This document shows, one piece after another, positions 8,965 to 59,507 of a DNA stretch of 64,000 bases (the stretch's first letter is position 1; every line of letters starts with the position of its first letter). A program made the position numbers and the translations under genes. The stretch spans positions 1 to 64,000 of IMG/VR virus record IMGVR_UViG_3300036781_000179; one strand, given 5' to 3'. Source of the DNA: a virus. A model generated the notes under the pieces. It ran no database searches. It was not told the origin of the DNA and saw only the letters and a program-made list of their open reading frames with translations.

Positions 8965-9005
8965 GACAGTGAGGTTTAAATAATAACTACATTGTTATTA
9001 CACCA

Positions 9006-9036
9006 CAAACATATAAAGTATATATCATATATGCAA
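9006..9036 (-). promoter_or_regulatory. Main leftward promoter with conserved spacer (copy 2)
   Basis: On the minus strand TTG (9034-9036) is followed by 20 bases and then TATGTTTG (9006-9013), matching the Bacteroidota -33/-7 promoter. The whole 30-bp block is nearly identical to the one at 1676-1706, including the spacer, so a common regulator probably acts on both. Confidence 0.8.
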
Positions 9037-9039
9037 ATA

Positions 9040-9662
9040 AAAATGAAAATAAATGTAAACTATTTTTAAAACAAGTATAAAACCCTACAACAAACAATAA
9101 CTTTTAACCCTATACAACACTGGCTAACATGTAACAATCCTTTACAGCCCTTTAAAACACCATTGTAACCACTATACCCTCTAACAACAATAAACACTTT
9201 TACCACTGATCACACCTTATTAACAACTGTTACTATTTTTATTACAGTTTATACATTATAAACCACTCTTAACACAGGTTACCCTTTTAATACCATTTAG
9301 TAATACATTACTACCTTTTGGTTGGTTATTACTGTTTTATTGCTGTTTTTACAGGGTGGATTATCCCTCCCTTGAACTCATTGTAACAAATTGACACAAT
9401 AGTAACCAATTGTTTTATAGCAAGTTATAGGATTTAAACTGTTTACCATTTATACCCTGTTTAAACCGTTGTAAGGGTGTAACACAATAACCATGGTTAA
9501 CACAGTAACAGGTGTAATAGGGGTTTACAATCCTGTTAACAGGGTTTATCAGGAGTAACGGTGATCAGGGTTTAAAACCGTTTATCAGGGGTGGGGTAGT
9601 GTGTAGCCCCGGGTATTCCGGCTTTTAGGTGGTGGAACGTGATAACGGGGGGATAGTCACCA
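9040..9662. other. Non-coding divergence zone, candidate replication origin
   Basis: I find no convincing gene here. The plus strand is poor in G from about 9060 to 9300 (C far exceeds G) and rich in G from about 9440 to 9660. This abrupt strand switch sits between divergent operons. The stretch contains many short near-repeats, for example GTTTATCAGG at 9544-9553 and 9580-9589, plus a palindrome at 9298-9313. Strand asymmetry, repeats and position fit an origin, but no consensus DnaA box is visible. The remaining 300 bases up to 9985 hold the terminator, operator and promoter entries below. Confidence 0.45.
9298..9313. repeat. 16-bp palindrome
   Basis: TAGTAATACATTACTA is a perfect inverted repeat with 7-bp arms and a 2-bp centre. 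It lies at the boundary between the G-poor and G-rich halves of the divergence zone. It could be a protein-binding site or part of the origin. Confidence 0.6.
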
Positions 9663-9680
9663 CTGTATACCCATATACAG
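9663..9680 (+). terminator. Hairpin with T-run (terminator-like)
   Basis: CTGTATA, a CCCA loop, then TATACAG, followed by CTTTTT. A perfect 7-bp stem with a tetraloop and a T-run has the form of a small intrinsic terminator for rightward transcription. No rightward gene lies upstream, so it may end a short non-coding transcript from the divergence zone. Confidence 0.5.
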
Positions 9681-9860
9681 CTTTTTAAAAATAAACCATA
9701 AAAAAAATTGGAAAAATTTTTGAAAAATAGTTTTGCAGTGTTTTTACAAGTAATAAAGTTTTATCATTAAAATCATGTTATATATTAATACGTGAAAATG
9801 ATGACTTGTTAAAAGTGTTATAACTTACTGTATTACTGTTAATTACAAAAGTTTAACTGG

Positions 9861-9955
9861 TATCAATCAGTTGATAAAAAAGCAATAACTACTTTATAGG
9901 TAAAGTGTCAATTAACTATTGCAATAAAATGAAATAAAAAGTGTCAATGTATTGA
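9861..9955. promoter_or_regulatory. Operator-like inverted and direct repeats
   Basis: TATCAATCAGTTGATA (9861-9876) and TCAATGTATTGA (9944-9955) are inverted repeats sharing the half-site TCAAT/ATTGA. A weaker relative (CAAT-5-ATTG) lies at 9909-9921. The 11-mer AAAGTGTCAAT also occurs directly at 9902 and 9938. The last palindrome overlaps the -33 TTG of the rightward promoter, where a bound repressor would block transcription. Confidence 0.55.
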
Positions 9956-9981
9956 TAGTTTAACAAATAGTAGTATCTTTG
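9952..9981 (+). promoter_or_regulatory. Rightward early promoter
   Basis: TTG (9952-9954), a 19-base spacer, then TATCTTTG (9974-9981). The predicted transcript would begin within or next to the start codon of the next gene (9986 or 9992), implying a leaderless or nearly leaderless message. Confidence 0.8.
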
Positions 9982-9985
9982 ATAT

Positions 9986-10477
9986 ATGGTTATGAAACGA
10001 AAGAAGCCCGACTTTGTAAATGAGAAAATGGGTATCAATCCTTTTGAGAGTGGATTACAGATATATGTCAATAAGAAGTTTAAAAAGGTAACTAATAAAT
10101 ATGATCAACCGGATCAGCAGGAGTTTGATTATGAAGCTACGCCCTATACAAAAGTTTTCGATGTACCGGATGATAAGAAGAATATAATAGACTTACCAAT
10201 TAGGTGTAAGGAGTTGTACCTGTACTTCATTCACTCATTAACTCCTGCACAGGATTACTTGTGGATTGATAAGGGTGTTTATATGAAACAAATGAAAATA
10301 AAAGCTTTAAACACATATAAACAGGCGGTTAATGGTTTGTGTGAGGCTGGTTATATTGCAAAGCATACAAGGCTGGCAAATGTATTTTGGATTAATCCTT
10401 ATTACTTTTTCAAGGGTAGTAGGATTAACAAGTATCCGACTAAAGTTTATGTAAAATCAAAAAAGGAGATAGTATAA
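9986..10477 (+). CDS. Winged-helix replication-initiator-like protein
   Basis: A 163-residue basic protein, the first gene of the rightward operon. The middle and C-terminus (KQMKIKALNTYKQAVNGL, then CEAGYIAKHTRLANVFWINP and FFKGSRINKYPTKV) read like a winged helix of the RepL/MarR-like type: a recognition helix followed by a wing and then a Tyr/Phe-rich strand. Such proteins bind origin DNA in some plasmids. Position beside the candidate origin supports a replication role, but this is inference. Start may be ATG 9986 or ATG 9992, both at the predicted transcript 5' end. Confidence 0.65.
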   Translation: MVMKRKKPDFVNEKMGINPFESGLQIYVNKKFKKVTNKYDQPDQQEFDYEATPYTKVFDVPDDKKNIIDLPIRCKELYLYFIHSLTPAQDYLWIDKGVYMKQMKIKALNTYKQAVNGLCEAGYIAKHTRLANVFWINPYYFFKGSRINKYPTKVYVKSKKEIV

Positions 10478-10728
10478 TGGCATTAAAAATTCAAATATAT
10501 CAAAACACGCCAATCAAAGATGGGTTTAGTTTAAATATTGTAGCCTCTGTTGATTTTATAGAGGAACTATGTATATTAAAAACAATTATTGAGAATCAAT
10601 GCCAATCCCACTGTATGGGAGTTACAATAGAATCGCTTGGCCCTATTAAAGTAAAGAAGTTATATAGTTTCAATTTTAAATCAGTGTACGGGGGGAGTGC
10701 AGAGTTAACTTCACAAATTATAAAGTAA
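10477..10728 (+). CDS. Small hypothetical protein (83 aa)
   Basis: The start overlaps the preceding stop (TAATG). The product alternates strands (LKIQIYQNTPIKDGFSLNI) and a helix with two Cys (NQCQSHC). I see no known family. Confidence 0.5.
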   Translation: MALKIQIYQNTPIKDGFSLNIVASVDFIEELCILKTIIENQCQSHCMGVTIESLGPIKVKKLYSFNFKSVYGGSAELTSQIIK

Positions 10729-10773
10729 AAACCTCATTTAAATAGTAAATAACCAATTAACAAACGAATTGAT

Positions 10774-10965
10774 ATGACAGCAACAAGTTACTACACGATC
10801 ATTAAGAACTGTTTAAGCGGTGATTACGCTGACTCAGAGGACATGGATAAGGAAACGATACGGGACTTTCTGTTAAGCCAGTTACAAATTGATTTAAGCA
10901 TTGGGGAATTGTTTATGCAGGAGGTAGTGGATTTAAGGAGGGATATAATAACAATGTTAACATGA
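10774..10965 (+). CDS. Small acidic hypothetical protein (63 aa)
   Basis: A helical acidic protein (CLSGDYADSEDMDKETIRDF). Its TGA overlaps the next ATG (ATGA), indicating coupling. The function is unknown. Confidence 0.5.
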   Translation: MTATSYYTIIKNCLSGDYADSEDMDKETIRDFLLSQLQIDLSIGELFMQEVVDLRRDIITMLT

Positions 10966-11321
10966 GTATACAAATAGAAATACCAATTGTATTTGGTAGT
11001 AAATCAAAAGACCGGATAATAAAAGCATCATTTAGTAAACTAACACTTGATGAAAAGTTTTTAATTGGCAGAACTGTTTACAGGTATGAAACCCCAATTG
11101 ATAAGGATGATGAAAAGAAGGGCTATAAAGAAGAATTAATAAATGAGAAGTCTTACACTGCAAAAGATAAAATTGTGCAAATAGGTGTGGCTTATGATGG
11201 CGAGGAAGATGTTTACTTTGTAGCAGTGGAAAAGATTAATAAAACCATGTTCTTCAATGTAGAATCAGCAGAAAAGGGTAACGAGTTGTTAAACCAATTA
11301 ATAGAGTGGTGGAAATCATGA
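10962..11321 (+). CDS. Hypothetical protein (119 aa)
   Basis: A beta-rich, charged protein (MSIQIEIPIVFGSKSKDRI, ending NELLNQLIEWWKS). I see no recognised motifs. It is translationally coupled at both ends by 4-base overlaps, in line with an early-gene array. Confidence 0.5.
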   Translation: MSIQIEIPIVFGSKSKDRIIKASFSKLTLDEKFLIGRTVYRYETPIDKDDEKKGYKEELINEKSYTAKDKIVQIGVAYDGEEDVYFVAVEKINKTMFFNVESAEKGNELLNQLIEWWKS

Positions 11322-11521
11322 CCGACAATCAATACTTATGGATGGGAATCACAGTTGATGGTATCTGTTTTCTAACAGCTATATACTTGGTAACAGTGGG
11401 TAACTGGAAGGAAAGAATGAAGGAAATAAAACGTAAACCCAAGACTGTTAAAAACAACTTTTGGACAATTACCAAACAAGAAATTATTGACGAATTTAAA
11501 TTTGATAAAAATGGATACTAA
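11318..11521 (+). CDS. Small membrane protein (67 aa)
   Basis: ATG 11318 is coupled to the previous TGA; the in-frame GTG at 11306 is less likely. One N-terminal transmembrane segment (MGITVDGICFLTAIYLVTVG) is followed by a basic cytoplasmic tail (KERMKEIKRKPKTVK). A role at the inner membrane is inferred from topology only. Confidence 0.6.
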   Translation: MTDNQYLWMGITVDGICFLTAIYLVTVGNWKERMKEIKRKPKTVKNNFWTITKQEIIDEFKFDKNGY

Positions 11522-11714
11522 AATGTGGCAACTATGCCCTAAATGCAACGGGAGTGGGACAGTAATTGATAATTATTATGGTAATTTTCAAAGTGGAGTA
11601 TGTGATTTATGTTGTGGCTCAAAACTTATTAGTTTATTAACTGGACTGCCTCCATATAAAGTTACAACACAAACATCTGACACAACTAATTTAATAGTAA
11701 CGATTAACAAATGA
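11511..11714 (+). CDS. DnaJ-type zinc-finger small protein
   Basis: Possible starts are ATG 11511 or ATG 11523; the frame is also open from TTG 11487. Two CxxC-type knuckles (CPKCNGSG and CDLCCGSK) resemble one repeat of the DnaJ Cys-rich zinc domain. A TAAATTTG box at 11497-11504, 6 bases before ATG 11511, resembles the leaderless promoters elsewhere in the window. The function is unknown beyond probable zinc binding. Confidence 0.6.
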   Translation: MDTKMWQLCPKCNGSGTVIDNYYGNFQSGVCDLCCGSKLISLLTGLPPYKVTTQTSDTTNLIVTINK

Positions 11715-11899
11715 AAACAGAACCAACCTACGAACTAAACGTTGAAAAGCTACAATCACTAAGTATAGCTGATTTAACAGGACTGATGCAATTAATGACG
11801 AGTGGAGAACATTATTTACCAATACTAAAAGCCACTATTATATTGGAAGCCACATCAACAGAACTGGACAAACGTATTAATGATATTATCATTTTTTAA
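11711..11899 (+). CDS. Small helical protein (62 aa), family shared with 18747-18938
   Basis: An acidic helical protein with LQSLSIADLTGLMQLM in the middle and STELDKRINDIIIF at the C-terminus. The product at 18747-18938 shows the same pattern (MSKLSNSDLYALLKMC, then SELDKRISELIVI), so the two are probably paralogues. The start overlaps the previous stop by 4 bases. Confidence 0.6.
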   Translation: MKTEPTYELNVEKLQSLSIADLTGLMQLMTSGEHYLPILKATIILEATSTELDKRINDIIIF

Positions 11900-11901
11900 T
11901 T

Positions 11902-12096
11902 ATGGATGAGAGAAAGTATATGGACAAAATAATGCTTCTTGAAGAAGAAGTTGAGAAGTATAAATCTGATTGTGAAGATTTGAAGTATCACTTCTTAGCA
12001 TTATTACAGGATTACGCCATAGTAATATCACAAGAAGGGTACGCAAATAAAAATGATATAACAGAATTGTGGATGAATAAAATAAAATATCTTTAA
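11902..12096 (+). CDS. Small coiled-coil protein (64 aa)
   Basis: Heptad-like, strongly charged N-terminal half (MDKIMLLEEEVEKYKSDCED) consistent with a short coiled coil. It lies 3 bases after the previous stop. No family is recognised. Confidence 0.5.
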   Translation: MDERKYMDKIMLLEEEVEKYKSDCEDLKYHFLALLQDYAIVISQEGYANKNDITELWMNKIKYL

Positions 12097-12098
12097 TT

Positions 12099-12380
12099 AT
12101 GGAATGGAATACAAACATAAAAGATATGTATGAGGTTGCCAATACCGAAAGATTGGTTGTTAGTTTTAATAATGGAACATGGTTGCCACATAATTCACCG
12201 GGATGGCCAAGTTATTTAGTTACAGGATGGATTTTATTACCAGAATTACCACATCAACCAAAATTAGTATGGCAACGTTCAACCAAGGCTATGCCTGATA
12301 TATGGATTACATCAACTGATGAAGATTACGAAAAGGGTAAAAATCTACCAAAATTTAATTGGAGACGAAAGGAAATATAA
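12099..12380 (+). CDS. DUF551-like small protein (93 aa)
   Basis: Trp/Pro-rich, with WILLPELPHQPKLVWQRSTK. Phage proteins with a 'W.P.P.LP' pattern of this kind are often annotated DUF551, but this one is only loosely similar. Its function is unknown. A 60-base gap with only a seven-codon frame separates it from the NinB-like gene. Confidence 0.45.
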   Translation: MEWNTNIKDMYEVANTERLVVSFNNGTWLPHNSPGWPSYLVTGWILLPELPHQPKLVWQRSTKAMPDIWITSTDEDYEKGKNLPKFNWRRKEI

Positions 12381-12442
12381 TGACAGAGCAGGAATTTAGA
12401 TAGCACCGTTTCTTATGTGGCTACTAATAAAAAAGTATAATA

Positions 12443-12877
12443 ATGGCACACGAACAGAAATTTGTAATTGAGAAAACAGACACAGGAATCAAAGGTTCTA
12501 AAGCCATTAGGAACGCCATAGACGAACTTTCTAATGGTAGGTGGGTAGTAACTATAGCCAAGTATAAAAAGAAGCGTAGTAACAACCAAAACAGGTTTTA
12601 TTTCGGGAACTTCATTGCATCCCAGATAGAGTGTTTCCAAGAAAGATGGGGTGAAACGTACAGGCAAGAACAGGTACACGATTGGAACAAGGCTAACTTT
12701 TGGGCAGACAGTCACATCAATGAAGATACAGGTGAGGTAATTATGAAACCTGCGTCATCCACTGACAACAACACGATTGAGTGGGAAGAAAAGTTAGAAA
12801 AGATAAGACAGTGGTTCAGACAAAACATGGATTGGGAACTTCCTTTTCCCCTGCAACAAACGGAAATAGATTTATAA
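12443..12877 (+). CDS. ninB: NinB-like recombination protein
   Basis: The 144-residue length is close to that of lambda NinB. The motif VTIAKYKKKRSNNQNRFYFG, with Trp before it and the KKRSxNQN core, is the family hallmark. In lambda, NinB (Orf) binds single-stranded DNA and SSB and replaces RecFOR in Red recombination. An equivalent role here is inferred from the family. It lies within the early replication block just upstream of a helix-turn-helix gene. Confidence 0.75.
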   Translation: MAHEQKFVIEKTDTGIKGSKAIRNAIDELSNGRWVVTIAKYKKKRSNNQNRFYFGNFIASQIECFQERWGETYRQEQVHDWNKANFWADSHINEDTGEVIMKPASSTDNNTIEWEEKLEKIRQWFRQNMDWELPFPLQQTEIDL

Positions 12878-12893
12878 ACATAAAAAACTAATA

Positions 12894-13082
12894 ATGGAAA
12901 CACTATCAGACACTGATTTAAAACGTGAGGCACGAAACAAGGCTTTACAGACAGCAGAACACATGCAGCCACTGAATAACATGTCTTACAACGGTAGAGG
13001 GCTACAAGACCCTAAAAGGGACATTTCACAACTGTTAAAAGATGCGGAAACAATTTATAATTGGTTAATTAAAGACCTGTAA
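12894..13082 (+). CDS. Small helical hypothetical protein (62 aa)
   Basis: Charged and helical, ending ISQLLKDAETIYNWLIKDL. A very similar C-terminal motif (EQLLDRSETIYQYMMKDK) ends the protein at 19997-20263, suggesting a shared domain. The function is unknown. A CCCC...GGGG inverted pair lies just after its stop (13083-13117). Confidence 0.55.
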   Translation: METLSDTDLKREARNKALQTAEHMQPLNNMSYNGRGLQDPKRDISQLLKDAETIYNWLIKDL

Positions 13083-13147
13083 CCCCTACGAAACGGAATT
13101 CCTGACTACGGTTGGGGATTTATTTTGAAAAAAAGTAAAATAATAAC

Positions 13148-18990: not shown

Positions 18991-18998
18991 TATATTTG
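18991..18998 (+). promoter_or_regulatory. -7 box upstream of pseudoknot RNA and HNH gene
   Basis: TATATTTG matches the -7 consensus. The predicted start site near 19005 would place the structured element at 19013-19090 at the 5' end of the transcript. No clear -33 TTG is visible. Confidence 0.5.
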
Positions 18999-19012: not shown

Positions 19013-19090
19013 CGTGCAGGATGGATTTAAAGACATTTTAATAGCCTTAGTTTCGGGGATAGCCTGCACGCTTGAACCGGGATTAAGGCT
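19013..19090 (+). ncRNA. Pseudoknotted leader RNA (element 1)
   Basis: A 14-bp helix with G-U pairs can form between AGCCTTAGTTTCGG (19043-19056) and CCGGGATTAAGGCT (19077-19090). Its 20-base apical loop contains CCTGCACG (19063-19070), the exact complement of the upstream CGTGCAGG (19013-19020). The result is an H-type pseudoknot followed by TTTT. It lies just upstream of the HNH gene start at 19103. It could be a leader or attenuator, or the 3' part of a small RNA. Confidence 0.65.
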
Positions 19091-19102
19091 TTTTAATTTA
19101 TT

Positions 19103-19663
19103 ATGGATTTTTATAAATGGATTCCAGTTATTTTTAATGGAGAAGAAAGTGATTACATAATATTTATTAATGACTCCACTGTTATAATAAATAGGAAGTA
19201 TAAAATTAACAACAAGTTAAATAATGGAGTTAGGGCTGACCATCATTTAAAAGAAAGAGAGTTAAAACAATCAAAAGCCCATACAACAGGATATACTCAA
19301 GTTGGGTTTACTCATAAAGGGAAGACATACAGGTTGTTGGTTCATAGAATAGTAGCTTTAACCTTCATACCAAATCCTGAAAATAAAAAATGTGTTAATC
19401 ACATAGACGGGAATAAGTCAAACAATCATCCATCTAACTTAGAATGGTGTACTTATAAAGAAAACATAAAGCATGCTCATGACACAGGACTAATTATAAA
19501 AGGAAAAGGAGTGGCTAAATTAACACATGATCAAGTTGTTGAAATAAGATTATCTGACATAGTTGATAAAAGACATAAATATAAATTATTTTCAAATAAG
19601 TTTAATGTGTCTCGAACTACAATAGGAGATGTGATTAGAAGAAAAACTTTTAAATATTTGTAA
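19103..19663 (+). CDS. NUMOD4/HNH homing endonuclease
   Basis: The N-terminus has the NUMOD4-like pattern WIPVIFNGEESDYIIFINDS. The core has YRLLVHRIVALTFIPNPENK, then KCVNHIDGNKSNNHPSNLEW, the HNH motif with the metal-binding His and Asn. A C-terminal NUMOD/helix-turn-helix segment follows (NKFNVSRTTIGDVIRRKTF). Such proteins nick or cut DNA at intron-less cognate sites and spread between phages. It may have inserted here, as surrounding small genes look interrupted. Confidence 0.85.
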   Translation: MDFYKWIPVIFNGEESDYIIFINDSTVIINRKYKINNKLNNGVRADHHLKERELKQSKAHTTGYTQVGFTHKGKTYRLLVHRIVALTFIPNPENKKCVNHIDGNKSNNHPSNLEWCTYKENIKHAHDTGLIIKGKGVAKLTHDQVVEIRLSDIVDKRHKYKLFSNKFNVSRTTIGDVIRRKTFKYL

Positions 19664-19733
19664 TAAAAAGGAACATAGAGAGGGAGTTAAGGGAATTTAA
19701 AACAGATTTGAAAAATAATAGACAATTGGAATT

Positions 19734-19994
19734 ATGGTAGAACACGACTTAAAAACATGGCCTGAATACTTTGAGCAAGTATGGAATGGCAACAAACGTT
19801 TTGAACTTAGAAAAGATGACAGGGATTATAAAGTACTTGACCAAATGACACTACGGGAATATGTGCCAACCCTTGGTTATACAGGACGTGTAATTGAATC
19901 AATAATTACCCATGTGTTGAGGGATGTTCCCGATTTTGGATTAAAAGAAGGATATTGTATTTTATCGTTTAACATTACAAACTATATTGATTAA
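19734..19994 (+). CDS. DUF3850 (PUA/ASCH-like) protein
   Basis: The 86-residue sequence fits the DUF3850 family: HDLKTWPEYFEQVWNGNKRF, then ELRKDDRDYKVLDQMTLREY, then LGYTGRVIES and GLKEGYCILSFN. The fold is related to ASCH/PUA domains, which bind RNA or modified nucleotides; the role in phages is not established. It lies 2 bases before the next gene. Confidence 0.8.
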   Translation: MVEHDLKTWPEYFEQVWNGNKRFELRKDDRDYKVLDQMTLREYVPTLGYTGRVIESIITHVLRDVPDFGLKEGYCILSFNITNYID

Positions 19995-19996
19995 TC

Positions 19997-20263
19997 ATGG
20001 AAGAATTAACAGATGAACAGTTTTTAGAGAACTTATGGAGAGAAAAAGGCATAAGTTTAGAGCGCGATAGAAATTTTGAGCAACGCCAAGTAATACAAGA
20101 ATCTGATTATAGATTTGAATCAGTAAAAATAGCATCCACACTAACCAATGAAAACCTTGAACAACTATTAGACAGGAGCGAAACAATTTATCAGTATATG
20201 ATGAAGGATAAAATCAGGAGACGAACCCCTGTATCATTGGAAGAAGCATTTAAAAAGGCATAA
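19997..20263 (+). CDS. Small helical hypothetical protein (88 aa)
   Basis: An acidic helical protein with a C-terminal motif EQLLDRSETIYQYMMKDK matching the end of the product at 12894-13082. It is the last gene before a bidirectional terminator. The function is unknown. Confidence 0.55.
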   Translation: MEELTDEQFLENLWREKGISLERDRNFEQRQVIQESDYRFESVKIASTLTNENLEQLLDRSETIYQYMMKDKIRRRTPVSLEEAFKKA

Positions 20264-20266
20264 AAA

Positions 20267-20296
20267 AATCCCCGGTAGTTAATTCAGCCGGGGATT
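20267..20296. terminator. Bidirectional intrinsic terminator
   Basis: AATCCCCGG (20267-20275) pairs exactly with CCGGGGATT (20288-20296), a 9-bp stem with a 12-base loop. The minus side continues with seven T (A-run 20262-20268 on plus), and the plus side has CCTGTTTT. It separates the rightward early operon from the convergent gene at 20303-20557. Confidence 0.85.
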
Positions 20297-20302
20297 CCTG
20301 TT

Positions 20303-20557
20303 TTAAGCGGATGCAGTTACTAATGTAGCGATTGTTTCGCCAACTAAGTAAACGTGTTGCTGACCCTCATTGTTTAACAAAGAGTTAGTCACGATACGTG
20401 AGTTGATACTCCCTGATGCTGCGGGATTACTTTTTTTGTTCGCTGCGGAGGCGTTCTGCACAACGATAATGGAATCAGTACCGATTGCCATTGGACTTGC
20501 TGATGCATACACAGATGAATCATGTGCATACACAGTTGCTGAAATGAGTCTTGCCAT
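20303..20557 (-). CDS. Minus-strand island gene, hypothetical (84 aa)
   Basis: A lone minus-strand gene in a rightward region, flanked by a terminator at its 3' end and its own weak promoter upstream (TACCTTTA, complement of about 20599-20606). The product is Ala/Ser-rich and beta-rich (VYAHDSSVYASASPMAIGTD, then SRIVTNSLLNNEGQQHVYL). It resembles small virion or decoration-type proteins in composition, but I cannot name it. Its autonomous layout is that of a moron gene. Confidence 0.6.
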   Translation of the reverse strand: MARLISATVYAHDSSVYASASPMAIGTDSIIVVQNASAANKKSNPAASGSINSRIVTNSLLNNEGQQHVYLVGETIATLVTASA

Positions 20558-20616
20558 GTTGGTAAGAGTTTAATTGTTAATTTGAAATTATTTTCACAAT
20601 AAAGGTAAGCAATGTT

Positions 20617-20646
20617 TTGAAATAAGAAATGATATAACTAAATTTA
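20617..20646 (+). promoter_or_regulatory. Promoter of element 2 / glycosyltransferase operon
   Basis: TTG (20617-20619), a 19-base spacer, then TAAATTTA (20639-20646), one base off TAnnTTTG. The predicted start site falls near 20652, exactly where the pseudoknot RNA begins. Confidence 0.5.
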
Positions 20647-20651
20647 CATCA

Positions 20652-20756
20652 GCGAAACGATACACACATGAACAAAAGATATTCAAAGATTTCCCGCAGC
20701 AACTCACAATGTTCATATCGTTTCGCAATGTTATACTCATTGGCTGCGGGATTAAT
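20652..20756 (+). ncRNA. Pseudoknotted leader RNA (element 2)
   Basis: The 5' strand GCGAAACGATA (20652-20662) plus TGAACA (20669-20674) is the complement of a contiguous 17-base stretch at 20710-20726. That stretch lies largely in the loop of a second hairpin: TCCCGCAGC (20692-20700) and CAATG (20707-20711) pairing with CATTG (20738-20742) and GCTGCGGGA (20743-20751). The T-run ATTAATTTTT follows. The topology matches element 1 although the sequence differs. It precedes the GT2 gene start at 20775. Confidence 0.65.
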
Positions 20757-20774
20757 TTTTAAAAACTAAATTAT

Positions 20775-21560
20775 ATGTCATTAATTGCAATGTGTTGTTT
20801 CGACACAATAGAAAATAAAAGGTCAGACTATACACGACAAACATTAGAATCTTTATATAAAACAGTAAATCAAGAAAGGCATAGGATTATTATAATAGAT
20901 AACAACTCCTGTAAGGAAACGAAAGATTTAATAAGTTCGTTTTATGAATCAAATCCTTTGGTAACCGTTATCACACTTAGTGAAAATGTAGGAACTGCTC
21001 GTGGCATAAATTTAGCCATTAAAATGAGAAAAGATGGAGAATCAGTTACTAAATTGGATAATGATTGTGTTATAAATTATAACGGATGGGCTGATGATTT
21101 AGAGGAAGCAATCAAACGTGATCCAACAATAGGTATTTGTGCTTTAAAAAGGGTTGATTTAGAGGAACACCCTGAACATGAATTGGATCATTATAGGTCT
21201 AAGTTATATATGTTACCACGTGAAAAGGGACAATCATGGTTGATTGCTGAACATGTGCAACATTGCATGGGAACATGCACAATGTTTAACCCGTTATTAC
21301 TTGATAAAGTAGGTTTTATGTGGCAAAAAGGTCTTTACGCGTTAGATGATTTTGAAATTGCAGTTAGATGTAACATGTTAGGATTTAAAAATGTATTCTT
21401 GCCTCATATACCAATAATTCACGTGGATACAGGAGATACAGATTATACCCACTGGAAAGTAAAATATGCGGGAGAGGTTTGGGATTCAACACTGGAAAGG
21501 ATAAACAACTATAAAAACGGAACTATACCAATTTATTACGATGGGGGATTTTCAGAATGA
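20775..21560 (+). CDS. Family 2-type glycosyltransferase
   Basis: The 261-residue protein has a GT-A fold signature. An N-terminal strand LIAMCCFDTI is followed by RIIIIDNNSCKETKDL, then SENVGTARGINLAIKM and the metal-binding DNDC (about residue 96). A later HCMGTCTMFNPLLL and WQKGLYALDDFEIAVRC complete the acceptor side. It should transfer a sugar from a nucleotide donor. It is the first gene of an operon of glycosyl- and methyltransferases with 4-base overlaps, so its partners are probably the next four products. Confidence 0.8.
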   Translation: MSLIAMCCFDTIENKRSDYTRQTLESLYKTVNQERHRIIIIDNNSCKETKDLISSFYESNPLVTVITLSENVGTARGINLAIKMRKDGESVTKLDNDCVINYNGWADDLEEAIKRDPTIGICALKRVDLEEHPEHELDHYRSKLYMLPREKGQSWLIAEHVQHCMGTCTMFNPLLLDKVGFMWQKGLYALDDFEIAVRCNMLGFKNVFLPHIPIIHVDTGDTDYTHWKVKYAGEVWDSTLERINNYKNGTIPIYYDGGFSE

Positions 21561-22165
21561 TTAATATAAGCGGCGATTCAGGAGAATATGAACTATTAAC
21601 ACAGGGTATTGAGTTATCAAAAGGCGTTGATGGTATTTGTGTTGAAATTGGGTTACGTCTTGGTTTAGGAACGAAGACAATTATTGATGCAGTACGCCAA
21701 TATAGCCCCAACAAGACGGTAATTAGCATTGATCCTTACGGAAGTATCCTTTATACATGTCGTGAGCCTGACGGTCCTTGTAGGCTTGATTACGACAATA
21801 ACATGAAGAACACATGCCTGTCAAATATTTACCAATACATAGTTGAAAATCCTGTTAGTTATCAATTTTATAATTGGACAGATAGTTTTTATTTTGATGC
21901 CATGAGAAATGGAGTCCCTGTTTATGACTTAGAAGAAACCATAGTAAATAAATACAGTTTCGCTTTCCTTGATGGACCTCACACAGTTAAACACATTTGT
22001 AGAGAGATTGACTTTTTTGCTCCACGCATGGATAAAGGTGCAATCATTATTTTAGATGACATCACTCCTGATTTCTACAATGTATTAGAAGTTGAGGATT
22101 ACATGAAAGATAAGTTTGAAATTGTTTACAAAGGCGAGAAGAAAGGAATTTACCGAAGAATATGA
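21557..22165 (+). CDS. Class I SAM methyltransferase (Methyltransf_24-like)
   Basis: The 202-residue sequence has motif I VEIGLRLGLGTKTIIDAV, an acidic second strand (VISIDPYGS) and a motif IV/post-motif pair FAFLDGPHTVKH and AIIILDDIT. This order matches small-molecule or sugar O-methyltransferases. It is likely to act on a glycan made by neighbouring transferases. It overlaps both neighbours by 4 bases. Confidence 0.7.
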   Translation: MINISGDSGEYELLTQGIELSKGVDGICVEIGLRLGLGTKTIIDAVRQYSPNKTVISIDPYGSILYTCREPDGPCRLDYDNNMKNTCLSNIYQYIVENPVSYQFYNWTDSFYFDAMRNGVPVYDLEETIVNKYSFAFLDGPHTVKHICREIDFFAPRMDKGAIIILDDITPDFYNVLEVEDYMKDKFEIVYKGEKKGIYRRI

Positions 22166-22815
22166 AAGTGAAACTAATAACAGTATGTACTGACCCAAAT
22201 AATGAGGCATTACAAATCCTAAAATACTCATTAGAGAAATATCAATGGGATTTTGAGATATTGATAGCCCCTGAATGGCGTGGATTTGGCACGAAACTAA
22301 TCACAGTTCAACAATATTTAGTCAACTCTGATATTGATGCTTTCTTTTTCTGTGATGCTTATGATTGTTTGGCACTTAATACAATGCATGAGGCAATTAT
22401 ATCCATTGAAGAAACATATGGACTTGATAAAATGGTATTTAGTGCGGAACGTGGTTGCTGGCCGATACCCGAACACAACGTTCATTATAAACCAATATTA
22501 GATCATGGTTTCAATTATCTTAATTCTGGTTTATATTATTCACCAAAGGATAAATTCTTGTCAGTTATGTCTAAGAACCCGCCACAGTATGCTGACGACG
22601 ACCAACTATATTTTACTACTGAGTACTTATTTAATGATAACAAGGATATTGTTTTAGATCAAAACTGTGAAGTATTTCAATCTTATTCATTTATTGAAGA
22701 TGATGACTATTGGTATGGAAACACTTATGTAAGAAATTTAAAGACAGGGACTATGCCATGTATATTTCATGGAAATGGAAAGTCCGACATGACTAAATTA
22801 TATGAATTAATATGA
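22162..22815 (+). CDS. PLOD/procollagen-type glycosyltransferase domain
   Basis: The sequence has TVCTDPNNEALQILKYSL at the N-terminus, then DAFFFCDAYDCLAL (metal-binding Asp cluster), FSAERGCWPIPE, a Leu-Asn-Ser-Gly motif (YLNSGLYYSP), a DDDQLYFTTEY and a terminal FHGNGK. This order matches the glycosyltransferase domain of lysyl hydroxylase/PLOD-like proteins, which also occurs in large viruses and phages. It should transfer a hexose to a hydroxyl acceptor. The acceptor here is unknown. Confidence 0.72.
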   Translation: MKVKLITVCTDPNNEALQILKYSLEKYQWDFEILIAPEWRGFGTKLITVQQYLVNSDIDAFFFCDAYDCLALNTMHEAIISIEETYGLDKMVFSAERGCWPIPEHNVHYKPILDHGFNYLNSGLYYSPKDKFLSVMSKNPPQYADDDQLYFTTEYLFNDNKDIVLDQNCEVFQSYSFIEDDDYWYGNTYVRNLKTGTMPCIFHGNGKSDMTKLYELI

Positions 22816-23513
22816 CATTAGCCGAACTTAAAGAAAATTGGAAGGATGAACCAAGTTATCATCAACACATACATGAGTTATTTATTAAACATGTTAATGA
22901 AGATACATTACTCAACAAACATCGGACATGGGTGGAAACTAATATTTGGGGCTTTGGTGAAAGGTCTTTTCATTGGTTTTGGTTATTGTTGATTAATGAG
23001 ATGCCAAATGAATTTTCATTTTGCGAAGTAGGAGTTTTTAGAGGCCAGTCAATATCATTGGTGGCACTTATAGCAATGTATCAAGATAAAATATCTCATG
23101 TTTATGGTGTTTCACCTTTAGATAGCAGCGATGGTCATTATGAATCAGATTACAGGACTGATATAAAGAGGATACACGATGAGTTTGAATTACCTGAATC
23201 ATATACCATATATCATGGATCAAGCACTGATAAAGACATAATTAAACAGGCGACCCAAACAGCCCCTTACGATATAGTTTATATTGATGGATGCCACTTA
23301 TATGACTATGTTGTGAGTGATCTAAACAATTATGCCCCTATGGTTAAAGCAGGTGGTTATTTAGTTGTGGATGATGCCTGTTGCGATATGGATATGCCTT
23401 TTGGGTTCTTCCAAGGTATAGTTAGTGTCACAAACGCAGTTTTAGAATGGGAAAATGAACAGTTTGAGTTTCAGTTTAATGTAGTTCATTTAAGGGTTTA
23501 TAAAAGAAAATAA
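22812..23513 (+). CDS. Class I SAM methyltransferase/CmcI-like
   Basis: The 233-residue protein has FCEVGVFRGQSISLVALIAM (motif I), DIVYIDGCHLYDYVVSDLN and GGYLVVDDACCD (motifs IV and V). This matches the Methyltransf_24/cephalosporin-hydroxylase-like group common beside glycosyltransferases. The long N-terminal helical part (about 70 residues) is unusual. It probably modifies the same glycan as the preceding product. Confidence 0.7.
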   Translation: MTLAELKENWKDEPSYHQHIHELFIKHVNEDTLLNKHRTWVETNIWGFGERSFHWFWLLLINEMPNEFSFCEVGVFRGQSISLVALIAMYQDKISHVYGVSPLDSSDGHYESDYRTDIKRIHDEFELPESYTIYHGSSTDKDIIKQATQTAPYDIVYIDGCHLYDYVVSDLNNYAPMVKAGGYLVVDDACCDMDMPFGFFQGIVSVTNAVLEWENEQFEFQFNVVHLRVYKRK

Positions 23514-23514
23514 A

Positions 23515-23988
23515 ATGGGCACACATATAAACAAAAGAGAAGGGCATTATAGAAAAGGTACTCGTATATATAACATATGGAAAAATATGAGGGCAAGATG
23601 CCATAATTCAAATCACCCAAATTTTAAATATTATGGAGGTAAAGGAGTTGTCATATGCGGAGAGTGGAATGACATTATTGTTTTTGAAAAGTGGGCATTA
23701 GAAAATGGATACAAAGACGACCTTACTATTGATAGGATGGATAGTAACGGTAATTATGAACCTGATAACTGTAGATGGGCAACCCGAGAAGAACAGTCAA
23801 ATAACAAATGTTCAAATGTTAAAATAACTCATAATGGAATTACATTAGGTATATCACAATGGGCATATAAATTAGGAGGTAAAAGCCATATGGTAATTTC
23901 TAGGTTAAGGAGGGGATGGACTGATTCAGAAGCAGTTTCTATACCATTTAAAGCAACTCGTAATCAATTTTATAAAAGAATTTCATGA
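23515..23988 (+). CDS. HNH/AP2-type mobile endonuclease-like protein
   Basis: This 157-residue protein has the widely spread phage pattern IYNIWKNMRARCHNSNHPNF, then YYGGKGVVICGEW and DDLTIDRMDSNGNYEPDNCR followed by WATREEQSNN. The C-terminus has a DNA-binding NUMOD/AP2-like region (HNGITLGISQWAYKLGG). It is probably a free-standing homing endonuclease that has inserted into the glycosyltransferase operon. It starts 2 bases after and ends 4 bases into neighbouring genes. Confidence 0.7.
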   Translation: MGTHINKREGHYRKGTRIYNIWKNMRARCHNSNHPNFKYYGGKGVVICGEWNDIIVFEKWALENGYKDDLTIDRMDSNGNYEPDNCRWATREEQSNNKCSNVKITHNGITLGISQWAYKLGGKSHMVISRLRRGWTDSEAVSIPFKATRNQFYKRIS

Positions 23989-24959
23989 AGAAAATAGTAA
24001 AATACTACTCGCCAATGCCAAGTGATTCTACCAGTTTTTACAGGGCTGTAGGGATATTACCATTTATAAAAAGTGATGAATTTGAATTGATAAACGTTTC
24101 TAACACCACACACTTTAGTTGGGCTGATTTTACAGGATGTGACATATTCTTTTTGCAACGACCATTTACAGCAGAGCATTTAAGCCTGTTAACATTGGCA
24201 AAAGACATGGGAGTAAAGGTAATCATTGATTTAGATGATGATATATGGAATGTACCGCAGGAAAACCCCACACACCAATTATATACAATATCACAAGCCA
24301 CTTTAAACGCCTGTGTTGAATTATCAGATGAGGTATGGGTTAGCACACAGTCAATAAAAGAAAGTGCCTTACAACACAATAAAAACGTTCATGTAATAAA
24401 CAATGCGTGGAATGATTACTTGTTTCCTGTTAAGGACAAGAAATCGTTTAATCACAAGACTAAAAAGATCACCTATAGGGGCGGTTCATCTCATCAAGCC
24501 GATGTAATGAGTATTGCAGATGATTTGGTCAAGGTTGTTAATAACAACAAAGATTGGACATTTACATTCATGGGTGATAGGTACACCTATTTAGAACAAA
24601 GGTGCGGGGACAACTATCACATAGTACCGGGATTTACCTTAATTCCATATTTCAAGTATATCATTGAAGATAATGCCAATGCCTTTATATTCCCATTGGT
24701 TGACAATAAGTTTAATAAGGGTAAAAGCAATATAAGCTGGATGGAAGCTACATATTCAGGTGCTTGTTTTTTTGGTAATGTATCATTGCCGGAATTTAAT
24801 TTTGTATTCCAAAGAGGGTTAAAAGTATTAAATAGTTTCATGGAAGATGTTGATTCAATGTGGATAGGCAATCAATTATCATGGGAATACATTTGTGATG
24901 AATTGTTACTATCGAAAGTAAATAACCAACGAATTGAAAGGATATTAAACAATCTATAA
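23985..24959 (+). CDS. Glycosyltransferase, GT-B fold (GT4-like)
   Basis: The 324-residue protein has N-terminal YYSPMPSDSTSFYRAVGILP, then VKVIIDLDDDIWNVP and DEVWVSTQSIKE. The C-terminal half has ITYRGGSSHQADV, TFTFMGDRY and a Glu-containing KGKSNISWMEATYSGA. That arrangement is typical of GT4-like enzymes in phages of Bacteroidota. It should use a nucleotide sugar and act with the GT2 and PLOD-type enzymes upstream. Confidence 0.75.
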   Translation: MKKIVKYYSPMPSDSTSFYRAVGILPFIKSDEFELINVSNTTHFSWADFTGCDIFFLQRPFTAEHLSLLTLAKDMGVKVIIDLDDDIWNVPQENPTHQLYTISQATLNACVELSDEVWVSTQSIKESALQHNKNVHVINNAWNDYLFPVKDKKSFNHKTKKITYRGGSSHQADVMSIADDLVKVVNNNKDWTFTFMGDRYTYLEQRCGDNYHIVPGFTLIPYFKYIIEDNANAFIFPLVDNKFNKGKSNISWMEATYSGACFFGNVSLPEFNFVFQRGLKVLNSFMEDVDSMWIGNQLSWEYICDELLLSKVNNQRIERILNNL

Positions 24960-25678
24960 TGGGTGACTTTACAAGACAGCAATTGTGGGATAGATGGATG
25001 AAATCTAAAGCCAAAGTAAAGGAGTTGCAGGATGTAATTCACAAGTTCAACCATTTCGATACTACAAAAGAGCGTCTAATTAACATGGAGGTAAGGAAAT
25101 TACAAACCATACATAAGAATGAACTTAAAAAAAAGGATGAAAAGATAGATGAGTTAAGGGCAAAGCTAAAAACACACCAATTAAGAAGTAAGGTATCCCG
25201 GTTTAGAACAAGAGAAAAGGTGAGGGAACGTTCAGAACTTAAAAAGAAGTTTGATGATTTTAAAGAGGAAGTAAAATACCTGTCAAAAGACTTTGAATGG
25301 GATAACACCACATCAAGGTTACAACACTTAGAAATAATTGTCAGAACCATTATAACATATAACAAGTTAACCAATAATAACATTATAACGTTTCATGAGT
25401 TCGCAGTGCTATTATTAGGCTCTCAGAAGCAATATTTTAATAAAAAGGATATAATAGACAGATACACCAATTTAGGTAGGTTTTTAAGGTCTGATTTAAA
25501 GTTATTCCTTGAAATAGGTTATATCAGGAAGGTGGAGCGAAAACCCTATTGGTATATTACAGTAATGGGTAAAAAGAGGTTAAACGAGATATTAAAGTTT
25601 ATATACGAAGAAAAAGTTGGACTGTTTAAGTTTGACGGAAATAAAAATATAAAATCACCAATAGATGAAGTCGATTAA
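24959..25678 (+). CDS. Coiled-coil plus winged-helix-like protein
   Basis: The first half (about residues 10-105) is a strongly charged coiled coil (NELKKKDEKIDELRAKLKTH). The second half reads like a winged helix (FLRSDLKLFLEIGYIRKVER, KPYWYITVMGKKRLNEIL). It could be a DNA-binding regulator of late genes or a virion-assembly factor. It sits between the glycosyltransferase operon and the GroES-like gene, with a one-base overlap at the start. Confidence 0.55.
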   Translation: MGDFTRQQLWDRWMKSKAKVKELQDVIHKFNHFDTTKERLINMEVRKLQTIHKNELKKKDEKIDELRAKLKTHQLRSKVSRFRTREKVRERSELKKKFDDFKEEVKYLSKDFEWDNTTSRLQHLEIIVRTIITYNKLTNNNIITFHEFAVLLLGSQKQYFNKKDIIDRYTNLGRFLRSDLKLFLEIGYIRKVERKPYWYITVMGKKRLNEILKFIYEEKVGLFKFDGNKNIKSPIDEVD

Positions 25679-26444
25679 AGGAACATATTTATTATCCATG
25701 ATAGACCATAAGGCAACCCATCAATTAACAGATGAGATAACCTTAGAAATTGATAAATCATTTGAAAACAATTTAAGGGAAAGAAACCCGCAATTAGGGA
25801 AAGTAGAAGCGATCCCAGATGATAACTTTTTAAAACTGGAAATTGGTGATACTGTAGCAGTGCAGCACTTCACATTTTATGGAGATATAGGAACTAACAA
25901 GTCATTTGCGCTACAGCCCCATGTAAAACATGACGGCAAACTTCTGTTTAAAGCTCATCAATGGCAGATATTCTTTAAGTACAATAATAATGTCCCTGAA
26001 CCATTAGATGGATTTATATTATGTGATAATGTAGAAGAAGACCAAAGCGAATCAGGTATCATTTTAGAATCAAAACCACACAAGAACAAAGCCATTGTAA
26101 CATTTGGACACAATGAGTTCAAAGTGGGCGATATAGTGCTTGTTTTGGATAATGCGTTATATTCCATAACTTTAGATAAAAAAGAATATTTCAAGGTTAG
26201 GACAGATGAGGTAGTAGCCAAATTAGACGGCGACAAAATAATTCCAGTTAACAATAACATGTTAATTGAGTACCTGCCTGAAAAAGAAAGTATCTTTGAT
26301 TTATCATTTGTAAAAAAGACCAACAATTTAACAGCTAAGAAAGATAACGGAGATTTAGTTCAAGTTTACAGGAATCAGGGCGTTAAATATGGAGATAAAA
26401 GGATTATTTCAGAAGATATGATAGCATTTAATTTATATGAATAA
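25665..26444 (+). CDS. Tandem GroES-like co-chaperonin fold
   Basis: The C-terminal part (about residues 115-205) shows the GroES pattern: PLDGFILCDNVEEDQSESGI, then KAIVTFGHNEFKVGDIVLVL and YSITLDKKEYFKVRTDEVVA. The N-terminal half has a weaker repeat (LLSMIDHKATHQL, GKVEAIPDDNFLKLEIGDTV and AVQHF). Two GroES-like units in one chain recall phage co-chaperonins such as T4 gp31, which help the host GroEL fold the capsid protein. The family call is mine from motif reading. It precedes the terminase and capsid genes. Confidence 0.55.
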   Translation: MKSIKGTYLLSMIDHKATHQLTDEITLEIDKSFENNLRERNPQLGKVEAIPDDNFLKLEIGDTVAVQHFTFYGDIGTNKSFALQPHVKHDGKLLFKAHQWQIFFKYNNNVPEPLDGFILCDNVEEDQSESGIILESKPHKNKAIVTFGHNEFKVGDIVLVLDNALYSITLDKKEYFKVRTDEVVAKLDGDKIIPVNNNMLIEYLPEKESIFDLSFVKKTNNLTAKKDNGDLVQVYRNQGVKYGDKRIISEDMIAFNLYE

Positions 26445-26853
26445 ACCGGGATTTACAGGGTTAACAAAAGAGCAACTTAAATACATTGAGTATTTGGAAA
26501 GTTGCTTAAATGGGACTGCTGATTTAATATTAGAGTTGAATAACCTGAATAGTATATTGGCAGGTGAAATAAACATGATATGTCAAGGCAATGACACCAT
26601 TGATGTTAAGGATGAAGAAAGCGGAGAAACTGTAAAGAAAAGCAAGTTAATACTGTTAAGCCCTGATAAGGATGATAAAACGTTTGACAAGATTATGAAA
26701 ATCGTTGATAAATACGATAAATTCAAAGCCATAGGTATATCTCCCAAGGAAGAAATTGGACAGCGTAATAAATTAAAGTTTAATATTGGCGATAACCCAT
26801 TTGAAAAAGTTATTGGTGATATTAAGTCACAAAAAAACGGAATTAAACATTAA
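26437..26853 (+). CDS. Putative terminase small subunit
   Basis: A 138-residue protein with a helical N-terminus (LTKEQLKYIEYLESCLNGTA) and a basic, Asp-rich tail. It overlaps the terminase large subunit by one base. Position and length fit a small terminase that recognises DNA ends, but I see no clear helix-turn-helix. It could also be another assembly factor. Confidence 0.5.
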   Translation: MNKPGFTGLTKEQLKYIEYLESCLNGTADLILELNNLNSILAGEINMICQGNDTIDVKDEESGETVKKSKLILLSPDKDDKTFDKIMKIVDKYDKFKAIGISPKEEIGQRNKLKFNIGDNPFEKVIGDIKSQKNGIKH

Positions 26854-28928
26854 TGGATATGGACTTTGAGGTAGGTAAACCAATTAAAGTTCACATATAT
26901 GAGGGACTATATTATACAACACCTCCTGTTCCAAAGCTTAATACCATAAGAGGGTACAAACTAAAAAAAGAAGACCAAGTCTACCATAGGGATACCACCT
27001 ACGAAAAATGGTCATGGAATGAGAACCCCAAAGATGGCACCGTTTGGTACATAGACCCCGAACCGGGGCAGTTAGAATGGTATTATGCAGAGATAGATAG
27101 GATACTAAATGGAGCATGGATAATAATTGAGGGTAAACCAGTATTCTTAAACCTATTTGCTTATTTCTACCATCAGTGGTTTGTTTTAAAAGAGGGCGGT
27201 TATCCTGAATATCGTGACAGTTCATTAGAATTTTTTCGGTTCATAGAGATTGTATTCAATGACCCAAAATGCCGTGGTGCCAATATGATGAAAGGTAGGC
27301 GTAAAGGCGTTTCTACCATGTGCATGTCTATCATGCTCCAATTTGGGTTAATCAAGCAGAACACAGAGCAAGGCATAACCTCTAAATCAGCTATTGATGC
27401 TGAAAAGATTTTCAAGTTGATGCTTGTCAACGGATATAGTAGGCTACCAAGTTTCCTTAAACCAAGATTAAGTGGTACAGATACCCCTGTCAAGACAATG
27501 CACATTACTAAACAGGCAGGCAGGATTACAAAAGAGGGTGGGACAGGCGCGAACAAAGAGGGCTTAAACAATAAGTTAGAATGGCGCGCACCGTCTTTAA
27601 ACGTATTTGACGGAGATGGTTTGTGGGTATTATTATTAGATGAAGCCGCAAAATGGGAGGACGTAAATATTGATGAATACTTAGAAATAGCCCTAAATAT
27701 CATAACCGCAGGAAAGCAAATAGGTCGTATCATCATAATAACTACTGTAAATAGAGGCGATAAAGGCGGTGACAATTATAAACCCGTATGGACAAACTCT
27801 GACCAAACAAAATTAAACGTATTAGGGCAGACAGAGAATAAACTATATCGTCACTTTATGCCCGGATACATGGGAGGAAGGGATGGAGGATGGATTGATA
27901 AATATGGAAACTCAGTTTGGGACACCCCAACGCCTGAACAAACAGAATATCTTAAAAACGACCCTAATACCCTTGATCCGTATATGGGGTGTAAAGAGTA
28001 TTGTGAACTGCAACGAAAGTTAAAAGCTAAAGACCCTGAGAAACTACAGGAAGAAATACGAATGTTCCCTTTCAACCCGGAGGAAGTATTTAATGCTGCC
28101 AACAACAAGTGCCACTTTAGTAATCCTGATGAAATAAACAACCAAATAGAAAGGGTAGAAGCCAAATTAGAAGATGCCAGTCTTTACCGCAGGGGATGGT
28201 TTAAAAAGATGGACAATGGCGATATTGAGTTTAAGGATGACCCGGAAGGACTATGGTACATATTAGAATTGTTAGAACCAAATCAGGCAAATAAATGGAT
28301 ATGGAAAAATGGTCAAAAAACCCCTAATAACACGGAATATGGTGCAGGAGGGGTAGATACATTCTCCAATAGTGAATCAACAGCAGAAAAAGGCTCTGAT
28401 GCCGCTATGTGCGTATTTAAACGATATAACCTGTTAGACCCTGAAAACTCAGGTATGCCAACAGCACTGTTTATAGGCAGGCCAAAGAATAAAAGGATAT
28501 TTAACCAACAGATATTTTGGGGTGCTGAATATTATGGCATTAAAATGCTTATAGAACGTGCGCCTACAGATTGGTACGATTATGCCGAAAAGGAAAAGAT
28601 ATTAGGATATTGCCTTAAAACAAAACTCAAAATCAACGGACAAGAGGTTTATGGCTGTGCGCCACAAGATCAGGAAGCAAGAGAGCAGCACTTAACAGAA
28701 ATGGTAGAATACATTGGCAATAATGTGGACAAGGTTTGGTTTTTAAGGATACTAAATGATTTGATACCATTTAATGTTAAGGACAGAACAAAATATGATG
28801 GTGCAATGGCATTTGGATACTCCCTAATGGCATGTAAAGACAAGTATAGAAGTATTGTGCCACCAAGTAAAAAAGAAGCTATTATAAAGACATTTAACCT
28901 GTTTAGTAAAAAACAAGCAAATTATTAA
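26853..28928 (+). CDS. terL: Terminase large subunit
   Basis: The 691-residue protein has an ATPase domain with NMMKGRRKGVSTMCMSI at the Walker A position, DGLWVLLLDEAAKWE as Walker B with the catalytic Glu, and IIIITTVNRG as the coupling motif. The C-terminal RNase H-like nuclease region has GGVDTFSNSESTAEKGSD and KYDGAMAFGYSLMACKD, with acidic metal ligands. It packages phage DNA into the prohead. The Walker A segment lacks the usual Gly-Lys-Ser/Thr. Confidence 0.88.
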   Translation: MDMDFEVGKPIKVHIYEGLYYTTPPVPKLNTIRGYKLKKEDQVYHRDTTYEKWSWNENPKDGTVWYIDPEPGQLEWYYAEIDRILNGAWIIIEGKPVFLNLFAYFYHQWFVLKEGGYPEYRDSSLEFFRFIEIVFNDPKCRGANMMKGRRKGVSTMCMSIMLQFGLIKQNTEQGITSKSAIDAEKIFKLMLVNGYSRLPSFLKPRLSGTDTPVKTMHITKQAGRITKEGGTGANKEGLNNKLEWRAPSLNVFDGDGLWVLLLDEAAKWEDVNIDEYLEIALNIITAGKQIGRIIIITTVNRGDKGGDNYKPVWTNSDQTKLNVLGQTENKLYRHFMPGYMGGRDGGWIDKYGNSVWDTPTPEQTEYLKNDPNTLDPYMGCKEYCELQRKLKAKDPEKLQEEIRMFPFNPEEVFNAANNKCHFSNPDEINNQIERVEAKLEDASLYRRGWFKKMDNGDIEFKDDPEGLWYILELLEPNQANKWIWKNGQKTPNNTEYGAGGVDTFSNSESTAEKGSDAAMCVFKRYNLLDPENSGMPTALFIGRPKNKRIFNQQIFWGAEYYGIKMLIERAPTDWYDYAEKEKILGYCLKTKLKINGQEVYGCAPQDQEAREQHLTEMVEYIGNNVDKVWFLRILNDLIPFNVKDRTKYDGAMAFGYSLMACKDKYRSIVPPSKKEAIIKTFNLFSKKQANY

Positions 28929-58500: not shown

Positions 58501-58917
58501 ATGAAATGCACAAAATGTTTAGAAGAAAAATCAGAATTTGATTTCGTATTTAAAAATAAAGTAGCTAATAAAAGACACACAGTATGCGGCGTTTGTCAAA
58601 GGGAATATAAAAAGAAACATTATTATGAAAATAAACCAGCACATTATGCGCGAAATATTAAAACAAGGATAGAAATAAAAAAAATTTATGACGAAGTTAA
58701 GGATAACGCTGTATGTATAATTTGTGGTGAAAACGAAAGGTGTTGTATAGATTTTCACCATTTAGACCCAAGTAAAAAAGAGTTTAATGTGGGTAGGTTA
58801 ACAACTTATGGATCAAAAATTAAACTTATTAACGAGTTTGAAAAATGTGTACCTCTTTGTGCTAATTGCCATAGAAAACTACATGCAGGAGTAATAGAAT
58901 TAAATATCGGTGTGTAA
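58501..58917 (+). CDS. HNH endonuclease
   Basis: 138 residues. An N-terminal zinc-binding pair (KCTKCLEEKSEF, then VCGVCQREYK) leads into the HNH core CIICGENERCCIDFHHLDPS and CVPLCANCHRKLHAG. The HH pair plus two CxxC motifs is typical. It is a free-standing mobile endonuclease. Its last bases overlap the 5' part of the first tRNA. Confidence 0.8.
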   Translation: MKCTKCLEEKSEFDFVFKNKVANKRHTVCGVCQREYKKKHYYENKPAHYARNIKTRIEIKKIYDEVKDNAVCIICGENERCCIDFHHLDPSKKEFNVGRLTTYGSKIKLINEFEKCVPLCANCHRKLHAGVIELNIGV

Positions 58918-58992: not shown

Positions 58993-58997
58993 CAAAA

Positions 58998-59069: not shown

Positions 59070-59073
59070 CATT

Positions 59074-59146: not shown

Positions 59147-59150
59147 CAAA

Positions 59151-59223: not shown

Positions 59224-59228
59224 CAAAT

Positions 59229-59311: not shown

Positions 59312-59317
59312 CTTAAT

Positions 59318-59404: not shown

Positions 59405-59410
59405 CTTAAT

Positions 59411-59494: not shown

Positions 59495-59507
59495 CATTCA
59501 ATTAGAA

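Follow-up and report, generated by a model that had tools for sequence, protein, structure and literature searches.

Two knotted elements of the window (the whole stretch of DNA analysed, which covers 64,000 of the 73,284 bases of an uncultured virus record) are, with near certainty, members of a single family of leader RNAs that are pseudoknotted, lie close to the promoter and occur in Bacteroidota phages. Related phages retain the knots despite different letters, so the family members are real control elements, most likely transcription attenuators. The genes and promoters of the window point to a Bacteroidota phage as its source, since the terminase is a distant relative of Flavobacterium, Cellulophaga and Tenacibaculum phage terminases and the promoters carry boxes of the type TAnnTTTG, the Bacteroidota -7 consensus.

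Element 1 lies on the plus strand near the end of the early plus-strand region, behind a -7 box read in the sequence (TATATTTG, 18991-18998). Its first helix, S1, pairs CGTGCAGG (19013-19020) with the exact complement CCTGCACG (19063-19070), which sits in the apical loop of a second helix, S2, of 14 bp (19043-19056 with 19077-19090, G-U pairs included). The intervening loop L1 (19021-19042) holds AAAGACAUUUUAA, a variant of the L1 motif shared with other members; S2 runs into a T-run (TTTTT, 19090-19094), and the ATG of a plus-strand HNH endonuclease gene (19103-19663; Pfam HNH_3, E=2e-10; phrog_59) comes 13 nt past S2. Element 2, on the same strand, follows the same plan with S1 in two parts. 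S1a pairs GCGAAACGATA (20652-20662) with 20716-20726, and S1b pairs ATGAACA (20668-20674), which contains the start codon of a leader ORF, with TGTTCAT (20710-20716); the 3' strands of S1b and S1a, TGTTCAT-ATCGTTTCGC, run together over 20710-20726 within the S2 loop. The L1 loop (20675-20691) carries the shared motif as AAAGAUAUUCAAAG, S2 joins TCCCGCAGC (20692-20700) to GCTGCGGGA (20743-20751) with a T-rich tract at 20752-20760 behind it, and an inner CAATG/CATTG pairing competes with the S1b helix. The promoter, read in the sequence, consists of TTTG at 20616-20619 and the -7 box TAAATTTAC at 20639-20647. The preliminary description had recognized much of this architecture: the 14-bp hairpin with an exact 8-base upstream complement in its apical loop, the hairpin loop complementary to 17 upstream bases, and for each element a -7-like box, a T-run at the end and an ORF within about 25 bases. 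All of these features are recovered here, the knot of element 1 both on reading the sequence and by blind scan; the earlier reading had overlooked the leader ORF, the place at the head of the late operon and the occurrence in many phages.

When both strands were scanned blindly for crossing helices, the two elements came out as the top two plus-strand pseudoknots of the 64 kb (scores 52 and 51.5), the third-best plus-strand candidate scoring 43.5 and overlapping a tRNA. None of 30 random windows of the same dinucleotide frequencies scored at least 51.5 (best, 50), and the nested hairpins alone are more stable than shuffled sequence (z of -3.8 for element 1 and -2.7 for element 2). The Rfam 15 covariance models, run on the window at the gathering threshold, returned nothing apart from tRNAs; at E<=10 there was no match at the element coordinates, and the matches elsewhere were at chance level. 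A DNA similarity search of the elements against phage records likewise gave chance matches only. HDV-like ribozymes, HEARO/omega RNAs and type III antitoxin RNAs, considered for their crossing helices or HNH neighbor, were rejected for want of an Rfam match and of shared anatomy.

Element 2 is read from its position as the leader of the late operon, because it lies between a divergent gene and a packed run of genes from 20775. The head of this operon (20775-28928, plus strand) comprises a GT2 gene (ATG at 20775), methyltransferases, a GroES-like gene and the terminase, and the packed plus-strand genes run on via terminase, portal, virion and tail-fiber genes to about 58 kb. No other candidate driver of the late operon was seen, as the upstream gene is divergent and the genes are packed after 20775. 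The divergent gene itself (20303-20557, minus strand, 84 aa) occupies the same place in two related loci, L013 and L015, and matched no known family in a Pfam and phrog comparison; a small divergent gene of 84-104 aa is retained upstream of the late leader in many related phages. Several further features of the window were recorded. A GC hairpin, ccccggtagttaattcagccgggg, at 20264-20305 between convergent genes is probably a two-way terminator that shields the late operon against read-through from the early genes. Six tRNA genes (Trp, Asn, Thr, Ser, Ser and Tyr) are clustered at 58908-59495 at the end of the late block, and a stretch of about 1 kb (8965-9985) separating the leftward from the rightward gene block, in which no ORF reaches 60 aa, is a possible control region or origin.

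Related loci were brought in through terminase and glycosyltransferase alignments. The GT2 protein searched by itself in viral contigs found no relatives, the terminase alignment had no match in bacterial genomes, and relatives of DUF3850 were discarded as a source of homologs because they came from unrelated phages. The late class thus assembled has 18 distinct members, that is, the window and 17 further phage loci. The element was found by inspecting the equivalent position in L013, L016 and L020, a whole-locus scan led to the equivalent position in L015, and the remaining members came from scanning whole loci and the 450 nt that precede the glycosyltransferase gene. These counterparts occupy the same place before the same operon, and their stem sequences are mostly different. 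Many other loci with a related glycosyltransferase gene showed no such element, so the late-class element marks one phage group and is not universal. In L015 the terminase gene (9989-13117) is interrupted by an insertion of about 350 aa that resembles an intein and has residues like those of splice junctions.

The S1 5' strand begins with GC in each late member and lies 4-5 nt past the -7 box in most, so the transcript very probably starts there; in element 2 its 5' end is probably the S1a strand at 20652-20662. S1 is made of S1a plus, in most late members, S1b, and the start codon falls within the S1b helix in most. Pairing in S1 is stronger than in shuffled sequence in 18/18 members (p <= 0.015), and S1a and S2 pair in all 18 with varied pair types: the outer S1a columns 3-9 show GC, AU, CG and UA pairs across phages, and S2 is variable in every column. 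MAFFT did not align the stems when given all 18 leaders, so scripts aligned them instead, anchored on the invariant GC and on the S2 end. On this alignment a member's own strands pair at 94-95% of variable positions, against at most 74% for permuted partners (20,000 permutations). Most members were chosen for having both stems, which makes the alignable pairs of loci the cleanest evidence for covariation. The following examples are all double changes that preserve the pair: GCGAAACG/CGUUUCGC in the window against GCAGAACG/CGUUCUGC in L016, GCGAAACGA/UCGUUUCGC against GCGAAACAA/UUGUUUCGC in L157, and GCAGAGUAA/UUACUCUGC in L013 against GCAGAACAA/UUGUUCUGC in L144. The argument for selection on structure, originally drawn from one topology with two differing sequences, is thereby strengthened, as the homologs keep the knots while their sequences vary; homologs lacking compensatory changes, which would speak against it, were sought and none was found.

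The late-class element ends in a GC stem, S2, and a T-run, and the next gene starts 11-24 nt past it in 18/18 late members. The tract following S2 has on average 5.7 T of 8, against 3.0 at matched distance before other genes, an enrichment that is partly selected because the scan yielding most members required a T-rich stretch; the position-found members L013, L016 and L020 also have 6 T of 8. S2 with its T-run accordingly resembles an intrinsic terminator, with two departures: the T-run is weak in several late members (L157, L151, L144 and L024), and the loop of S2, at about 60 nt, is unlike that of standard terminators.

The leader ORF of element 2 (20668-20769, plus strand; MNKRYSKISRSNSQCSYRFAMLYSLAAGLIFKN) has 33 codons and stops 5 nt before the GT2 start. 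In all 18 late members the frame set by the first ATG or GTG past S1a is open across the S1 3' strand, S2 and the T-run, where shuffling with stems and loop composition preserved predicts 4.9 of 18 (chance per member, 0.13-0.60); the product of these chances is about 2e-11, to be read with the kinship of the members in mind, which makes the trials non-independent. The other two frames are open through S2 in only 8/18 (frame 1) and 2/18 (frame 2). An ATG or GTG leader start is present in 16/18 and missing from L143 and L147, whose frame, set by comparison with L151, is nevertheless open; with both omitted the product is about 1e-10. The leader stop falls 4-35 nt past S2, often overlapping the next start codon or a few bases from it. 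The leader peptides differ among members and, counted from the start codon, the AUAUU of L1 is met in each of the three frames, so it is the act of translation, rather than a peptide, that seems to be under selection.

Same-plan knots were also found in front of HNH genes, by searching the whole records of the relatives for the HNH_3 domain and scanning the surroundings. They lie 9-31 nt before the gene in L171, L173, L176, L183, L190 and L196, of which L173 comes from the phage of L016, L183 from that of L028 and L190 from that of L143; L122 and L141 have one knot each in other places. L196 is a third leader in the window's own genome, beyond the window (64485-64593, minus strand; L196 1945-1837), 31 nt before another HNH gene and alignable with L183 from a different phage. 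A recognizable -7 box precedes most members of this class, and their S1 is significant against shuffles in most, the exceptions being L171 (p 0.09) and L176 (p 0.06). The leader ORF is mostly absent: in L171 and L176 no start codon precedes S2, and the short ORFs of the others, apart from that of phage phi46:3, end early. HNH-class and late-class leaders thus match in topology, promoter, T-run and spacing and differ in the leader ORF through S2, and element 1 belongs to this sister class. The L1 motif ties the two classes together. A-rich and of the form A(U/C)AUU, it precedes S2 in 16/27 loops, namely 10/18 in the late class and 6/9 in the others, whereas shuffling all 27 gave it in 3.2 on average and in 10 at most. 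In L016 (2203-2749) the HNH gene behind the element 1 homolog is split by a frameshift, the leader being intact, and L178 (1950-2076) has very strong crossing helices (score 63) 3' of an HNH gene.

Cultured phages carry such leaders as well. Cellulophaga phage phi46:3 has one at 2948-2870 (minus strand), 21 nt before the HNH gene gp008; its T-run has seven T, and it holds the motif AAAAAUAUU and a 27-codon leader ORF; phi19:3 and phi13:2 have nearly identical sequence. In Tenacibaculum phage Gundel_1 a leader (33911-33996) precedes by 19 nt a gene with an antirepressor annotation. None was detected at the scan threshold in Cellulophaga phage phi38:1 or Flavobacterium elemo phage 6-3D, and several other candidates from the cultured-phage, whole-locus and HNH-surroundings scans are probably chance pseudoknots in coding sequence.

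As the best reading we propose that the leaders are cis-acting attenuators and that in the late class a leading ribosome decides read-through, a mechanism to which we give roughly even odds. The late operon must be transcribed through S2, because the gene upstream points the other way and a promoter would not fit between S2 and the first gene. Transcription would begin at or near the S1 5' strand; S1 would close as soon as its 3' strand emerges, and S2 with the T-run would then form a terminator-like stem whose loop is constrained by S1. In the late class S1 would additionally bury the start codon of the leader ORF that spans S2. A ribosome that loads before S1 closes, trailing the polymerase, would hold both S1 and S2 open, so that the polymerase enters the operon and the ribosome finishes beside the next start codon; otherwise the knot would close, transcription would end at the T-run and the leader start would be locked. 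As that start is predicted to be paired once S1 has closed, later ribosomes would be excluded and the first would race the knot. In E. coli a leading ribosome suppresses the pyrBI terminator, tight ribosome-polymerase coupling preventing termination (PMC5021804), and terminators a few bp past a stop codon are silenced (PMC4824070). Since S2 is not preceded by a start codon in L171 and L176, leader translation is not the common mechanism of both classes. The HNH class, with the same knot and no conserved leader ORF, presumably responds to another factor, perhaps one reading the L1 motif; alternatively, the knot may simply reduce expression. The fuller proposition, that a new RNA family gates the whole late operon by a co-transcriptional knot burying the leader start in the terminator loop, late genes being transcribed only when a ribosome loads ahead of knot closure, with HNH genes carrying a stripped form, is put forward tentatively, as somewhat short of probable.

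The steady S2-to-start distance, 9-24 nt in nearly all members, is just as compatible with translational control. The leader would then cause no termination, the knot and the U-rich spacer serving as a binding site for the ribosome or for a phage RNA-binding protein, as in T4 gene 32, and leader translation opening S2 so that the next start is exposed by translational coupling. We consider this possible but unlikely. It would account for a leader stop that adjoins or overlaps the next start, and it has a phage precedent, a pseudoknot followed by UUAAA repeats (PMC535899). It gives no reason for the greater T-richness directly after S2 than at matched distance before other genes, and the unstructured part in T4 exceeds 40 nt and includes the ribosome site, whereas the spacer here is 11-24 nt.

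An antitermination element is an improbable alternative. The nascent knot, through its L1 motif, would bind the polymerase or a phage factor and thereby carry transcription past this terminator and later ones of the long late operon, as with HK022 put or lambda nut; the motif is indeed common to classes with unrelated stems and element 2 heads a transcript of about 38 kb, but the open leader ORF is left unexplained and HNH-class members precede single small genes. It is more doubtful that the T-run releases a separate small RNA of some 110 nt which works in trans or serves as the mRNA of a small toxic or regulatory peptide. The start codon of type I toxin mRNAs is buried in long-range pairing, as is the case here, and the element has its own promoter and a terminator-like end. 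The leader stop, however, lies 4-35 nt past S2, so that a terminated RNA would mostly have no stop codon, the peptide is not conserved and the L1 motif shifts frame; this was therefore dropped as the main reading. Of the three roles offered in the preliminary description, attenuators or leader switches are the best supported, and an excised small RNA as the main product has become less likely, because the next gene is 11-24 nt off with no room for a second promoter and the leader ORF mostly passes the terminator. That the elements are hairpins arisen by chance, or a ribozyme or known riboswitch that escaped the eye, is very improbable in view of the lack of an Rfam match, the lower scores of random windows and the 17 further syntenic members.

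Among known systems, the late class, and only the late class, resembles pyrBI of E. coli, whose leader ORF (pyrL) spans the terminator stem and stops shortly ahead of the first gene. It differs from pyrBI in that pseudoknot pairing with the terminator loop takes in the start codon region itself, that a phage late operon follows and that a sister class has no ORF; UTP sensing is known from pyrBI. The operator of gene 32 in T4 and RB69 is likewise a phage leader pseudoknot followed by a U/A-rich stretch before the start, its topology is constant while its sequence diverges, and in T4 a homing endonuclease gene lies near it (PMC535899). That operator has a pseudoknot of about 28 nt and more than 40 nt of unstructured, UUAAA-rich ribosome-binding RNA (PMC535899), whereas the leaders described here have stems of 9-18 bp, a T-run directly past S2 and a leader ORF, and their first genes are GT2, HNH or small genes rather than one for an Ssb protein that binds the operator. 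SAM-II, preQ1, manA and wcaG are also structured 5' leaders, the first two being H-type pseudoknot riboswitches, and the manA and wcaG motifs occur in phages (PMC2864571); unlike these, the present leaders have no Rfam match and control genes without metabolite logic. Compared by description, HK022 put and lambda nut share the placing of a structured RNA at the opening of a phage operon transcript, where they serve antitermination; a leader ORF and a T-run are foreign to them. Limited searches of the open-access literature found no comparable phage late-operon leader. Leader ORF attenuators and phage leader pseudoknots are known kinds, and it is their combination, the late-operon position and the HNH sister class that appear to be new.

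To our knowledge, how Bacteroidota phages switch on their late genes from an ordinary-looking host-type promoter is largely an open question, and a conserved leader heading the late transcript offers a concrete, testable switch. Bench testing is possible, because cultured Cellulophaga phages carry the HNH-class form and Tenacibaculum phage Gundel_1 a related leader. The leaders constitute a covariance-supported RNA family absent from Rfam 15 and, if the proposed mechanism is true, they would exemplify a leader ORF that forms part of a pseudoknotted terminator's loop.
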